A stretch of DNA of 41,293 nt, taken from contig JACPOW010000086.1 of the NCBI GenBank assembly GCA_016191335.1, forward strand, positions 1-41,293. Reading direction: 5' to 3'. Of this stretch, positions 1 to 41,293 are shown piece by piece. This stretch comes from Elusimicrobiota bacterium (lineage in GTDB: Bacteria > Elusimicrobiota > Elusimicrobia > UBA1565 > UBA9628). The translations under genes were made by a program, and so were the position numbers. Positions within the stretch are counted from its first letter, which is position 1. The number at the start of each line of letters is the position of its first letter. The notes under the pieces were generated by a model that saw only the letters and a program-made list of their open reading frames with translations, did not search any database and was not told where the DNA came from.

Positions 1-138
1 CTCACACCTGAAGGCGCTGGGCGTAGTGCGCCTGGCCGCCTCATGAAGGCCGCTATCCGAACCGCCGGATGCGTCACGCGCACGTCCGGTGGTGTGGGAG
101 GGGGCGGGTAGGACGATCCTACCTGCCTCCTACCCGAT
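1..138 (+). mobile_element. Group II intron, 3' end (domains V and VI), truncated by window start
   Basis: The RNA folds as a group II intron tail. Domain V spans 61-93: bases 61-69 pair with 85-93, a two-base CG bulge lies at 83-84, and 70-73 pair with 79-82 under a small loop. Domain VI spans 96-135: 96-98 pair with 133-135, 99-101 with 129-131, 104-113 with 117-126. The unpaired A at 132 is seven bases from the end, where a group II branch point belongs. The intron therefore ends at 138 (CCCGAT). The sequence style, including the CCTACCCGAT end, resembles bacterial class C introns. Domains I-IV and most of the maturase lie outside the window. The 3' exon starts at 139, just ahead of the glycoside hydrolase gene. 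Confidence 0.85.
2..46 (+). CDS. C-terminal tail of group II intron reverse transcriptase/maturase (partial)
   Basis: A reading frame open at the window edge codes SHLKALGVVRLAAS and stops at TGA 44-46, 14 bases before domain V. Intron-encoded proteins sit in domain IV and end a few tens of bases before domain V, so position and spacing fit. Fourteen residues cannot identify a family by themselves; the assignment rests on the intron RNA that follows. Confidence 0.55.
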   Translation, partial: SHLKALGVVRLAAS

Positions 139-35662: not shown

Positions 35663-37114
35663 GTGAAACAATACGAACTGATCATCGGCCTGGAAGTCCA
35701 CTGCCAGCTCGCCACCAAGACCAAGCTGTTCTGCGGCTGCGGCACCGACGGCTTCGGCCAGGCGCCGAACAGCCGCGTCTGCCCCCTGTGCACCGCCCAG
35801 CCCGGCGTGCTGCCGGTGCTCAACCGGCGCGCCGTCGAGCTCGCGTTCCAGGCGGCCATGGCCCTCGACTGCAAGCTCTCCGACCAGTCGATCTTCGCCC
35901 GCAAGAACTACTTCTACCCCGACCTTCCCAAGGCCTACCAGATCTCCCAGTACGACCAGCCCTTCTCCCAGCACGGCAAGCTCGCGATCACGGTCGACGG
36001 GAAGGTCAAGACCATCGGCATCACCCGCATACACATGGAGGAGGACGCCGGCAAGCTCGTCCACGACCTGGCCGGCTCCAAGCTCGACGGCTCGCTCGTG
36101 GACCTCAACCGCGCGGGCGTGCCGCTCATCGAGATCGTCAGCGAGCCCGACATGCGCACCTCCGACGAGGCCTACGCCTACCTGACCGCCCTCAAGGAGG
36201 TCATCCAGTTCACCGGCTCCTCGCGCTGCGACATGGAGAAGGGGGAGATGCGCTGCGACGCGAACGTGTCGGTCCGGCCCGTCGGCCAAAAAGAGTTCGG
36301 GACCAGGACCGAGACGAAGAACCTCAACTCGTTCAAGAACGTCAAGGACGCGATCGACGCCGAGTTCCGGCGCCAGGTCGAGGTCATCGAGAGCGGCGGC
36401 AAGATCGTCCAGGAGACCCGTCTCTGGGACGCGGCCCTGCAGGCCGGGCGCTCGATGCGTACTAAGGAAGACGCCCACGATTACCGCTATTTCCCCGACC
36501 CCGACCTCGTGCCCCTCGTCGCGGACCCGAAATGGGTTGACGAGCTCCGGGCTAAATTACCCGAGCTCCCCGTGAAAAAAAGGGCTCGCTTTACGGGCGA
36601 ACTGGGGCTATCCTCCTACGACGCCGAGGTTCTGACGGGCGACAGGGTCCTCTCCGAGTACTTCGAGAAGGCCGTCGCGGCCGCCCCCTCCGGGTCCGCT
36701 AAAACCGTGTCCAACCTATTGACCACCGAGATGCTGGGCCGCCTCAACGCCGAAGGCAAGACCGCGCCGCAGTCGCCGGTCGCGGCCGCCCACCTCGGCG
36801 AGCTCGCCGGCCTCATCGCGGGCGGGACCCTGTCCTCGAAGGGAGCCAAGGACGTCTTCGCGAAGATGTGGGAGACCGGCAAGGGGCCGAAGGCGCTCGT
36901 CGACGAGCTCGGCCTCTCCCAGGTCTCCGACGACAAGCAGGTCATGGAGTGGGTGCTTCAGGCGCTCGCGGCCAATCCCAAGGCCGCCGCCGACCTGAAG
37001 GGAGGCAAGGACGCCGCCATCGGCTCGATCGTCGGCGGCGTCATGAAGCTCTCCAAGGGGAAGGCGAACCCCGCCCTCGTCAACAAGCTCATCAAGGAGG
37101 CCGTCAAGGCATGA
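35663..37114 (+). CDS. gatB: Asp/Glu-tRNA amidotransferase subunit B
   Basis: The 483-residue subunit binds and activates the misacylated tRNA. It opens with YELIIGLEVHCQLATKTKLF and FCGCGTDGFGQAPNS, whose cysteines with CPLCTAQPGVLPVLN form the zinc site, then KNYFYPDLPKAYQISQYDQP, RIHMEEDAGKLVHD, DLNRAGVPLIEIVSEPD and EMRCDANVSVRP. The C-terminal YqeY-like helical domain is present. Start is GTG 35663. It is separated from gatCA by the TPR, Nudix and two lower-GC genes, and its end overlaps the NHL protein gene by four bases. Confidence 0.97.
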   Translation: MKQYELIIGLEVHCQLATKTKLFCGCGTDGFGQAPNSRVCPLCTAQPGVLPVLNRRAVELAFQAAMALDCKLSDQSIFARKNYFYPDLPKAYQISQYDQPFSQHGKLAITVDGKVKTIGITRIHMEEDAGKLVHDLAGSKLDGSLVDLNRAGVPLIEIVSEPDMRTSDEAYAYLTALKEVIQFTGSSRCDMEKGEMRCDANVSVRPVGQKEFGTRTETKNLNSFKNVKDAIDAEFRRQVEVIESGGKIVQETRLWDAALQAGRSMRTKEDAHDYRYFPDPDLVPLVADPKWVDELRAKLPELPVKKRARFTGELGLSSYDAEVLTGDRVLSEYFEKAVAAAPSGSAKTVSNLLTTEMLGRLNAEGKTAPQSPVAAAHLGELAGLIAGGTLSSKGAKDVFAKMWETGKGPKALVDELGLSQVSDDKQVMEWVLQALAANPKAAADLKGGKDAAIGSIVGGVMKLSKGKANPALVNKLIKEAVKA

Positions 37115-40100
37115 ACTCTATGAAGCAACTCGCTCTCGCGCTGCTGCTGGCCGTTCCCGCGCGCGCCTACGACACGATCCGCTTCCTCGAGCCCATCAAG
37201 GGCGACGAGATGGCCAAGCCCGTCGCGGCGGCGGCCGCGGCCGACCGTCTCTACGTCGTCGACGAGAAGAAGAACTCCCTCTTCCTTTACGACATGGTGG
37301 GCAAGCTGATCAAGACCGTGGGACGCTCCGGCAACCAGCAGGGCGCCTTCAGCTCGCCGCGCGGCGTCGCGGTCGGCCCGAAGGGCAACGTGTACGTCGC
37401 CGACACCGGCAACAGCCGCGTCGAGATCTTCGACCGCGACGGCAACTTCGTCTACGCCTTCGGCGAGAAAGGGTCCGAGCCGGGCAAGCTCAAGAACCCG
37501 GAGTCGGTGGCCGTCGGCGCCGACGGACGCATCTACGTCTCCGACACCGGGAACAACCGCATCCAGGTCTTCAACGACGAGGGCATCCTGCTCTTCTCCT
37601 TCGGGCGCTACGGCAAGGAGCCGGGCCTGCTCAACAACCCGACGCGCATCGCCGTCGACCCGTCCGACAACGTCTTCGTCCTCGACCGCAACAACGAGCG
37701 CATGCAGAAGTTCGACGCCTCGGCCAAGTTCGTCAAGGAGTACGCGCTGCTGGGCAACGACTTCACGGCCGACCAGTACGGCTTCCTGTATGTCGTCGAC
37801 GGCAAGAACGGCAAGGTCATCGAGCAGTCCGGCGAGGGCTTCATCATGGGCAAGTTCGGCTCGCTCGGCTCCGGCGTCGGCCAGATGCGCAAGGCCGAGG
37901 GCATCGCCATCACTCCCGACGGCATATTGATCGTGCTCGACACCGGCAACAACCGCATCCACCGCGTCGAGCTGACCAACAAGCTCAAGGTCAAGGCGCT
38001 GCCGATCAACCTGCAGACCAAGATGGCCGTCTCCGGGCCTTCCCGGACCTGGCCTTATTCGGCCTCGATCCTCGCGCCGCACGGCGACGACCTGTACGCC
38101 TGGCTCCCGAAGGAGATGCAGTTCGTGCTCATCGACGAGAAGGGCAAGGAGAAGCAGCGCTTCGGCTCGTCGAAGGGCAAGGGCGGAGAGGTCACGCGCG
38201 GCGTCGGCGGCATGGCCGCGATGAAGTCGCCGAAGGTCGAGGGGCTGTACGTCACCGACCTGCCGAACCACCGCCTCCAGCAGTTCGGCCTGGACGGCAA
38301 GTGGAAGTCCAACGTCGGCGAGGCCCAGGGCTTCTTCGATTCCAAGCGCCGCGAGGGCCGCATGAAGAACCCCAACGGCGTGGCGATCAACGGCGAGGGC
38401 GTGGTGTACGTGGCCGACACCGGCAACCAGCGCATCGACGCGTTCAGCCCAGAGGGCGTGTTCCTGTTCGGCTTCGGCCCCAAGGTCGGCTCCTACATGC
38501 TGCTCGAGCCGGTCGCGGTCGCCTGGGACAAGGCGGGCTTCATCTACTTCGTCGACAAGGGACTCAAGCGCGTCTTCAAGTGCGAGCCGTCCGGAGCCTA
38601 CATCGCCTCGTGGGGCGAGGACGGCGACGGGCCCGGCGAGTTCAAGTCTCCCGTCTCGATCGCCTTCGACGGGCAGAACTACCTCTACACTCTGGACTCC
38701 CAGCTGCGCCGCGTCAGCGTCCACACCAAGGACGGCAAGTGGCTTGCCGACTTCTTCGCGGGCGGCAAGCAGGAGCGCGAGCTGCTCGAGCCGATCGCGG
38801 TCTCCGTCCAGGGCGACAAGCTCGTCATCGCCGACAAGGGCAAGAGCCGCCTCGTCAGCTACGACCTGCACCCGATGCTCACCGCGCCGGCCGCGCTCTC
38901 CACCTCGACCAAGGACGGGATCGTCTCGCTCTCGTGGGAGCCCGTCGCCGACCCGTGGACGGGCGGCTACGTCGTCTCCCGCTCCACCGGGGCGTTCGGG
39001 CCGTGGACGAGGGCCGGCGAGACGAAGACCGAGAAGTTCGAGGACTCGGAGGTCACGCCGTACGAGAAGTACTGGTACCGCGTCGCGACCAAGGCCAAGA
39101 CCTCGGACGTGGGCCCGGCCGGCCGCCCGGTCGACGTGTTCGTCGCGGGCTCCTTCAACCGCTCCCCCGTCGAGATCTCGACGATCACGCTCGGCGACAT
39201 CTTCGCCGCGAACTACAAGTGGTACCTGCGCAACCCGATGGGCTCGGCCGTGCTCACGAACAACGTGAACGTGGCCTTCCAGAACGTGAAGCTGACCTTC
39301 AAGCTCAAGGACTACATGGACTTCGGCTTCGACACCGAGGTCAAGAAGCTGGAGCCGAAGCAGACCGTCGAGATCCCGCTGATCGCGACCCTCAACAACA
39401 AGGTGCTCGACGTCAGCGAGGACACGCCGATCCAGGCCGAGTTCACGATGACCTACTTCGAGAGCGGCAAGCAGCAGACGGTCTCGATCACGAAGCCCCT
39501 GCGCCTGTACTCGCGCAACGCGATCACGTGGCAGGACCCGCAGCGCATCGCGAACTTCGTGACGCGCAAGGACCCGCCCGTGCGCGACTTCGTGCGCGGC
39601 GTCTCGACGCTCGAGTTCAAGAACCGCAAGGCGGCCGCGCTCAACGAGCCGGTGGTCAAGGCGATGCGCCTGTGGAACGCGATGTCGGAGTTCGGGATCA
39701 AGTTCGTCGCGAACGCGGCCAACCCGTTCGAGGCCGCCCACGACGACCCGAACTTCCCGGTCGACTACACGCAGTTCCCGCGCGAGACCCTGCGCAGCAA
39801 GGCCGGGCAGTGCTCGGACCTGACGTCGCTGTACGGCGCCATGCTCGAGGACAGCGAGGTCCGCGTGGCCATCCTCGACTACCCCGGCCACATGACGATG
39901 ATGTTCGACACCGAGGCCGAGGACGCCGCGGAGGCGGGCATGCCCGCCGACCTGCTCGTCGAGCACGAGGGCACGATGTGGGTGCCCGTCGAGGTCACCT
40001 ACGTCGGCAAGCCGTTCATCGACGCGGTCTCCAAGGCCGCGTACGCCTACAAGACCGAGGCCGAGAAGGGCCGGGTGAAGGTGTACTCCCTGCACGCGGC

Positions 40101-40614
40101 CTGGGGCACCTACGAGCCGGTGACGATGCCTCCGACCGACTTCAGCCCGAAGCTCCCCGAGGCCGCCGGGCTCGAGCGCCGCTACGACGACCAGGTCAAC
40201 GTGCTCGCCAAGGACCGCTACGAGTTCCTGAAGAAGGAATACGAGACCGACATCAAGCGCAACGGCAAGGACGTCGACGCGCAGCTCCAGCTGGGGATCA
40301 TCGAGTACCAGTTCGGCAACCGCGAGGCGGCTCTGACCGAGTTCAACAAGGTGCTGGCGCTCGACCCGGCGAACGCGGCGGCGCTCAACAACCTCGGCAG
40401 CGTGGCCTTCCTGGAGGGGGACAACGTCGAGGCGGAGCGGCGCTTCACCCAGGCGTCCGACGCCGAGCCGAACGACCCCACGATCTGGCTCAACCTCGTG
40501 AAGACCTCGCTGAGGCTCAAGAAGCTGGACAAGGCGAAGGCGATGGGCGAGAAGGCCGTGGCCCTCGCCCCGGCGTACAAGCCGGCCGTCGACAGCCTGA
40601 TCAAAGGAAGCTGA
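37111..40614 (+). CDS. Secreted NHL/FnIII/transglutaminase/TPR multidomain protein
   Basis: The 1167-residue exported protein has a signal peptide (MKQLALALLLAVPARA). Residues about 35-590 hold a long series of NHL propeller blades (e.g. GNVYVADTGNSRVEIFDRDG, GRIYVSDTGNNRIQVF, EGVVYVADTGNQRIDAFSPE). About 600-690 is fibronectin type III-like (LSWEPVADPWTGGYVVSRST). Then comes a beta-domain, a transglutaminase-like fold with the triad C901 (AGQCSDLTSLYGAML), H927 (YPGHMTMMF) and E961 (WVPVEVTYVG), and C-terminal TPRs (about 1045-1160). It could crosslink or cleave envelope proteins, with the propeller and TPRs as binding faces. It overlaps gatB by four bases but is not functionally tied to it. 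Confidence 0.87.
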   Translation: MNSMKQLALALLLAVPARAYDTIRFLEPIKGDEMAKPVAAAAAADRLYVVDEKKNSLFLYDMVGKLIKTVGRSGNQQGAFSSPRGVAVGPKGNVYVADTGNSRVEIFDRDGNFVYAFGEKGSEPGKLKNPESVAVGADGRIYVSDTGNNRIQVFNDEGILLFSFGRYGKEPGLLNNPTRIAVDPSDNVFVLDRNNERMQKFDASAKFVKEYALLGNDFTADQYGFLYVVDGKNGKVIEQSGEGFIMGKFGSLGSGVGQMRKAEGIAITPDGILIVLDTGNNRIHRVELTNKLKVKALPINLQTKMAVSGPSRTWPYSASILAPHGDDLYAWLPKEMQFVLIDEKGKEKQRFGSSKGKGGEVTRGVGGMAAMKSPKVEGLYVTDLPNHRLQQFGLDGKWKSNVGEAQGFFDSKRREGRMKNPNGVAINGEGVVYVADTGNQRIDAFSPEGVFLFGFGPKVGSYMLLEPVAVAWDKAGFIYFVDKGLKRVFKCEPSGAYIASWGEDGDGPGEFKSPVSIAFDGQNYLYTLDSQLRRVSVHTKDGKWLADFFAGGKQERELLEPIAVSVQGDKLVIADKGKSRLVSYDLHPMLTAPAALSTSTKDGIVSLSWEPVADPWTGGYVVSRSTGAFGPWTRAGETKTEKFEDSEVTPYEKYWYRVATKAKTSDVGPAGRPVDVFVAGSFNRSPVEISTITLGDIFAANYKWYLRNPMGSAVLTNNVNVAFQNVKLTFKLKDYMDFGFDTEVKKLEPKQTVEIPLIATLNNKVLDVSEDTPIQAEFTMTYFESGKQQTVSITKPLRLYSRNAITWQDPQRIANFVTRKDPPVRDFVRGVSTLEFKNRKAAALNEPVVKAMRLWNAMSEFGIKFVANAANPFEAAHDDPNFPVDYTQFPRETLRSKAGQCSDLTSLYGAMLEDSEVRVAILDYPGHMTMMFDTEAEDAAEAGMPADLLVEHEGTMWVPVEVTYVGKPFIDAVSKAAYAYKTEAEKGRVKVYSLHAAWGTYEPVTMPPTDFSPKLPEAAGLERRYDDQVNVLAKDRYEFLKKEYETDIKRNGKDVDAQLQLGIIEYQFGNREAALTEFNKVLALDPANAAALNNLGSVAFLEGDNVEAERRFTQASDAEPNDPTIWLNLVKTSLRLKKLDKAKAMGEKAVALAPAYKPAVDSLIKGS

Positions 40615-40631: not shown

Positions 40632-41102
40632 ATGAAGACGATCGTTACCGCCGTCATCGCCGCGATGCTCGTGATCCCCGCGCGCGCCGACGAGAAGGCC
40701 GCCCCGGCGGCCGCCAAGTCCGGCTGGTCGGACTTCTTCAAGAACCTCAAGAACACCCTCGCCCAGTCGGCCGTCGGCGGAGAGCGCAAGAAGGGGCGCG
40801 GCGCCCAGGGCGTCGCCGCCGTCCGGGGAGCCGGCCAGGGCAAGAGGAACATCGCCGACCCGAACGAGCCCGGCCTCATGGGCGACGCCAAGAGCGCGAA
40901 GGTCAAGAAGGAGATGGGCTACGACCTGGAGCTCGAATCCGCCGTCGACCAGGTCGCCGCGGGCAAGCCCGAGGACGGCCTCAAGGCGCTCGAGAAGTTC
41001 AAGGCCGCCCACCCGAAGCACCGGGCCGCCGACGTGGACAAGGCCATCGAGGGCGCCAAGGCCATGATCGCCGAGAAGGGCTCGGCGCCCGCCGCCGAAT
41101 AA
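40632..41102 (+). CDS. Small exported helical protein
   Basis: No family is recognised. The 156-residue protein has a signal peptide (MKTIVTAVIAAMLVIPARA, cut near ADEKAA), a basic glycine-rich middle (GGERKKGRGAQGVAAVRGAG) and a helical C-terminal part with a TPR-like ring (VAAGKPEDGLKALEKFKAAHP). AGGAGGA (40621-40627) is the strongest Shine-Dalgarno in the window, five bases before ATG. It follows the NHL gene by 17 bases and is the last gene before the terminator, so it is probably an envelope partner of that protein. Confidence 0.78.
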   Translation: MKTIVTAVIAAMLVIPARADEKAAPAAAKSGWSDFFKNLKNTLAQSAVGGERKKGRGAQGVAAVRGAGQGKRNIADPNEPGLMGDAKSAKVKKEMGYDLELESAVDQVAAGKPEDGLKALEKFKAAHPKHRAADVDKAIEGAKAMIAEKGSAPAAE

Positions 41103-41120
41103 GCCGTCCCGGCGGACGCG

Positions 41121-41156
41121 AAGGGCCCTCGCCGGAAGGCGGGGGCCCTTATCTTT
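41121..41156 (+). terminator. Rho-independent terminator, target of the right-hand intron
   Basis: Thirteen pairs (41121-41133 with 41138-41150, one G/T) close a GGAA tetraloop and are followed by ATCTTT. The group II intron begins at the very next base. Confidence 0.92.
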
Positions 41157-41293
41157 GTACGCCCAGCATGACGCACGACTGAAGAGGTGGAAGTCCTCTG
41201 GGAACCCGGTCGCAGGGACCCGAGGGAAACGCAAGGGCGGGGTCGCGAGGCCCTGTCCGAAGGAAGCGTGGAACGAATTCCTGAGCCGACGAA
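41157..41293 (+). mobile_element. Group II intron, 5' end (domain I), truncated by window end
   Basis: The sequence begins GTACGCCCAGCATG, a slight variant of the GTGCG start of bacterial group II introns, and continues with AGAGGTGGAAGTCCTCT, a hairpin, and the purine-rich domain I pattern CAGGGACCCGAGGGAAACGC and GTCCGAAGGAAGCG. It starts directly behind the T-tract of a terminator, the insertion habit of class C introns. Maturase and 3' domains lie beyond the window. Confidence 0.82.

Follow-up and report, generated by a model that had tools for sequence, protein, structure and literature searches.

The window, which is the whole 41,293-nt stretch of DNA that was analysed, ends in what is almost certainly a class C group II intron, a mobile element that starts at position 41157 and entered the T-tract of an intrinsic terminator by retrotransposition (probability about 0.96). 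The window is the complete contig G000:C40, and the assembly ends there at 41293. The assembly holding it has 135 contigs and 3.66 Mb. The features of the window are listed in Table 1.

Table 1. Positions of the features at the two ends of the window and in the upstream transcription unit, with the evidence for each.
Feature	Position	Strand	Evidence
3' end of another type A intron copy (last 138 nt, ending CCCGAT)	1..138	+	RF00029 at 60-138; identical in 11/11 type A 3' ends
C-terminus of maturase frame, SHLKALGVVRLAAS-stop	2..46	+	Translation; resembles the LGVPRLA ends of complete maturases
Domain V	60..94 (about)	+	RF00029 alignment and fold
Domain VI, single bulged A at 132	95..138 (about)	+	Fold and RF00029 alignment
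Upstream NHL/TPR repeat protein	37075..40614	+	Marker used to locate orthologous loci in relatives
Final open frame of the upstream unit (156 aa, without a Pfam match)	40632..41102	+	Homologue in G016
Intrinsic-terminator hairpin (13 bp, loop GGAA)	41121..41150	+	Sequence; fold; 5/5 inspected same-genus loci with an orthologous hairpin
T-rich tail ATCTTT, closing the 5' exon (IBS1 region)	41151..41156	+	Sequence; exon ends TT in 11/11 type A sites
Type A group II intron (first 137 nt, the rest cut by the contig end)	41157..41293	+	RF02001 at 41239-41293

The original prediction placed a group II intron right behind the T-tract of a 13-bp hairpin, and this was confirmed. The arms of the hairpin are AAGGGCCCTCGCC (41121-41133) and GGCGGGGGCCCTT (41138-41150), and the loop lies at 41134-41137. 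One of the 13 pairs is a G-T wobble. The predicted fold had an energy of -29.6 kcal/mol (z -4.66), which was equalled by 0 of 200 shuffles. The first intron base is G41157 and the intron opens with GTACGCCCAGCATG, with zero bases separating it from the T-tract. Rfam family RF02001 (group-II-D1D4-3) matched 41239-41293 with 36.3 bits against a gathering score of 32, the match being clipped by the window end. Ten further 5' ends of the same type, each with at most 2 mismatches, were found in the genome and support 41157-41293 as intron. The stop codon of the last open frame of the upstream unit lies 19 bases 5' of the hairpin. This transcription unit keeps its terminator, as originally proposed, because the hairpin and its tail remain intact upstream of the insertion.

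The first bases of the window belong to an intron as well. RF00029 matched this region with 39.5 bits and was absent from the default scan of the window because the score is 0.5 under the gathering score of 40. The short frame at 2-46 gives the last 14 codons of a maturase. The bulged A132 lies seven bases from the intron 3' end (AT138). The window contig is a segment flanked by two intron copies.

The upstream NHL/TPR gene was found in 18 of 19 same-genus genomes including that of the window. The orthologous terminator was present and the intron absent at all of the five closest other loci (G016, G008, G015, G006 and G010); the check covered these five of the 17 other same-genus loci. The insertion had also been called harmless. 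This stood for the upstream unit and probably fails for a convergent neighbour, whose last two codons would be changed if contig C88 carries the other flank of the intron. It is quite probable that the insertion was not neutral, having hit the final two codons of a convergent cytidylyltransferase-like gene whose stop codon overlapped the terminator tail. It is equally probable that this gene would now read into the antisense intron and end NRVGGR-stop instead of KR-stop. The next gene downstream in G006 is convergent, encodes a cytidylyltransferase-like protein (PF01467) and shares 90% identity across 761 nt with the 3' flank of a type A 3' end on C88. Joining window 41100-41156 to the C88 flank (L036) restored a frame ending GLIKRLQGKR-stop, which is also how the G006 homologue ends. 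With the intron in place the convergent frame reads LQGNRVGGR-stop. All 16 recovered 5' flanks were joined to the C88 flank as a control, and exact LQGKR-stop came from the window's flank only. Against this, three other flanks put the stop no more than one codon away from that position (LQGK-stop in two and LQGKKR-stop in one). About 190 nt separate the terminator and the convergent gene in G006, and in G016, the closest relative, another gene lies downstream. A search for that G016 gene in the genome of the window gave 78 matches, the best being 40% identical over part of the query, and no clear orthologue. The pairing of C40 with C88 is also deduced, from synteny and the rebuilt frame, and C88 is on these grounds probably the other flank of the window's intron. 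If C88 is the partner, the intron would have gone precisely into the final two codons of the convergent gene.

A search with the end of the window recovered 16 intron 5' ends in its own genome, 11 of type A (GTACG) and 5 of type B (GTGTG). Among type A 5' ends 40 of 55 pairs were identical over their shared length, with a maximum of 2 mismatches in any pair. Type B 5' ends had 0 mismatches across 10 pairs. A search with RF00029 recovered 18 intron 3' ends, 11 of type A and 7 of type B, which were identical within each type over 126-140 nt. The genome therefore contains at least 18 copies of two types. The 5' types were matched with the 3' types as A and B from their counts and from the likeness of type B to a complete intron in G037, so the pairing of the labels is putative. 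RF02001 gave a full-length match of 128.6 bits in another copy, on contig C92. The near-identity of the copies at many sites suggests that the introns may have been active recently. Two copies in this genome (L008 and L011) lie behind terminators 3' of tRNA genes, Thr and Leu.

All 34 intron ends (16 5' and 18 3') sit at contig ends and make up 34 of the 270 contig ends of the assembly. Three contigs (C40, C78 and C92) have an intron end at both contig ends. The assembled 5' pieces run for approximately 90-260 nt from the intron start, and the 3' pieces cover the last 126-140 nt. The location of every intron end at a contig end is explained by the way in which assemblers break at long near-identical repeats. 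No complete intron was found in the assembly, and queries with GIIM, RVT_1 and whole maturases gave 0 matches in it. An exact 27-base pattern searched in the genome contigs also gave 0 matches. Other contig ends carry the 3' halves of introns, with domain V, domain VI and the maturase C-terminus.

Complete introns were found in relatives. Among 147 genomes, including that of the window, RF02001 matched in 9 and the 5' intron DNA in 7. The complete introns are in G061, G037 and G015 (L051-L053) and encode proteins of 446, 452 and 491 aa. Each of these maturases contains TIGR04416, RVT_1 and GIIM and no other Pfam domain; an endonuclease domain is absent from all three. The closest PDB chain to the G037 maturase was the GsI-IIC RT (6ar1, E 2.1e-130), with other group II maturases next. 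The complete maturases end in YFDQLGVPRLA and YFKSLGVPRLAEG, which resemble the type B end YFDELGVPRLAA-stop in the genome of the window. The latter was translated from assembled DNA, and the maturase of this genome is known from its C-terminal residues. Judged from these relatives, the introns of the window's genome would encode a full maturase. Their placement in class C is likewise putative and combines the proteins of the relatives with the insertion rule. A check for a maturase and a class C domain V beyond 41293 had been proposed, and its outcome is indirect. Domains V and VI and the maturase C-terminus came from the 3' halves in the same genome, and the whole maturase came from the complete relatives. 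A domain I-like stretch without a recognisable intron start (L054 / L042, G009:C94) was also found and is probably a degraded fragment. No maturase was present among the frames of this 4.2-kb contig.

The empty maturase searches in the window's own assembly would also fit short non-autonomous or degenerate group II fragments that lack a maturase and were spread by the machinery of another element. This explanation is very unlikely. The cuts in all copies fall at contig ends, the pattern that long identical repeats produce in an assembly. The 3' pieces begin with the maturase C-terminus immediately 5' of domain V, and the complete relatives carry intact maturases. The missing maturase is read here as lost in an assembly gap, where a long near-identical repeat was not resolved, and not as absence.

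The position of the mobile intron behind a terminator was repeated throughout the genome. At 16/16 recovered 5' ends the first base of the intron directly follows the T-rich tail of a strong hairpin, with hairpins of -20.7 to -36.5 kcal/mol and at least 5 T among the last 8 bases, under hairpin and T thresholds chosen after the sites had been seen. A loose hairpin threshold of -9 was dropped after 130 of 192 control positions passed it. A threshold of -20 was used for this genome because -9 is useless in GC-rich DNA. The 5' flanks of the same loci were used as a control on both strands. Of these 45,434 positions 308 had at least 5 T, and the full criterion (hairpin and at least 5 T) was satisfied at 15, representing 7 distinct places. 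The hairpins differ among sites and the introns are nearly identical, which indicates that the hairpin is the target and not the cargo.

A scan of named genomes gave at least 80 loci. A first 5'-end pattern matched in 68 of the 80 loci listed, included false sites and was rejected. With a stricter pattern 56 of the 80 loci listed had a clean 5' end, in named genomes of many phyla, and 24 were dropped ahead of the count. A hairpin of -10 kcal/mol or better was present at 54 of the 56 clean junctions, a threshold that is lax in GC-rich DNA. Such a hairpin together with 5 or more T among the last 10 bases was present at 46. Intergenic terminators are common, but a chance landing in an intergenic region that happens to hold one has next to no probability and is refuted by the counts, with 16/16 junctions at the T-tract itself against 15 qualifying control positions and with 46/56 junctions of the relatives in agreement under a laxer criterion. 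At locus L130 the exon just 5' of the junction resembles the terminal domains V-VI of a second group II intron (GGTGTGGCAGGGG and CTATGCCGATG). One intron seems to lie directly behind another at this locus.

To locate EBS1, 61 introns were aligned (56 named, 4 from relatives and 1 from the genome of the window). The pairing of each 5-base stretch with the intron's own 5' exon was scored against permuted exons. One place stood out among the 61 introns with a z of 13.4, the runner-up having 3.0, and is most likely EBS1. The type A EBS1 is AATTG, as read from the single copy that was long enough (L006). The two final exon bases pair with it at 11/11 sites, and the third base does so at 2/11. Two to four of its five positions were paired. 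As the type A EBS1 fits so few exon bases, the hairpin, more than IBS1, would have to carry recognition.

Related introns of a sister genus (G028 and G037) lie behind hairpins without a T-tract, and their 5' exons end CCGGCG and CGCGCG. The G037 EBS1 starts CGTGC and, read by eye, fits its own exon at five positions with one G-T pair. Six of the seven recovered 5' ends in G028 are inside a repeat, and five intron-free copies of the repeat were also found. The complete repeat is approximately 440 bp with inverted ends around CAATGCCGGTCACTTA. The 3' junction on G028 contig C20 enters the same repeat, reading CGAT at the end of the intron followed by CGACGATA, and the empty copies read CCGGCG followed by CGACGATA. 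An internal hairpin of this repeat (L189, G028:C8:27900-28900; L190-L193, L067-L072 and L188) is the target of a class C intron. Several copies of the repeat abut a TAG or TAA stop codon on one or both sides. These introns raise the possibility, judged at slightly under even odds, that the class C lineage of this family retargets by changing EBS1 and always keeps the hairpin requirement. T-tracts would then be used in the species of the window and GC-rich exons in the sister genus, and the G028 intron would feed on or ride with another mobile element. The EBS1 of the G028 intron, on which this retargeting would depend, lies outside the assembled sequence.

The mechanism of class C intron mobility given here follows published work. 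The present analysis itself showed where the intron lies, its hairpin, both intron ends, domains V and VI, the presence of many copies, the terminator rule and the intron-free terminators in relatives. The excised intron RNA and its maturase would recognise the DNA hairpin plus the short IBS1 just 3' of it. The intron RNA would reverse-splice at that point, and the reverse transcriptase of the maturase would copy the intron. The two related introns, A and B, may each have spread by this route and between them occupy at least 18 sites in the genome.

The intron kind is already known and its members here are new. According to a passage of PMC8919778, which cites Robart et al. 2007, the C-type introns of bacteria have their insertion sites immediately behind rho-independent terminators. 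The same passage states that this limits their effect on host genes. The preference of class C introns for terminator hairpins had been named as known in the original prediction, and the 16 sites agree with it. The introns of the window's genome resemble known class C introns in the site directly after a rho-independent terminator, in domains V and VI and probably in a short IBS1-EBS1 pairing. A maturase free of an endonuclease domain, a further class C trait, was seen in the relatives. A section of PMC7161350 describes a mobility assay with a terminator-like hairpin plus IBS1. Compared with known class C introns nothing essential differs; here at least 18 copies of two types occur in one draft genome. 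Particular to type A are the start GTACG and an EBS1, known from one copy, that fits only two or three exon bases. The GsI-IIC RT, which among solved chains comes nearest to the complete G037 maturase, is from another host. An IBS1-EBS1 pairing of 3-4 bp and the use of attC hairpins as targets are reported in a portion of PMC7923331. The G028 introns are like these group IIC-attC introns in that a non-terminator hairpin can be the target. They differ in that their hairpin is part of the repeat of approximately 440 bp with its inverted ends, and in their 5' exon, which is CCGGCG where the attC consensus given there is TTGT/T.

The intron copies account for fragmentation of the draft assembly. 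The published insertion rule was borne out at 16 recovered sites of a draft genome, and the sister genus lends itself to a natural test of whether the hairpin or the T-tract is the essential part of the target. The convergent gene suggests that a site behind a terminator protects the upstream unit but not always the convergent neighbour.
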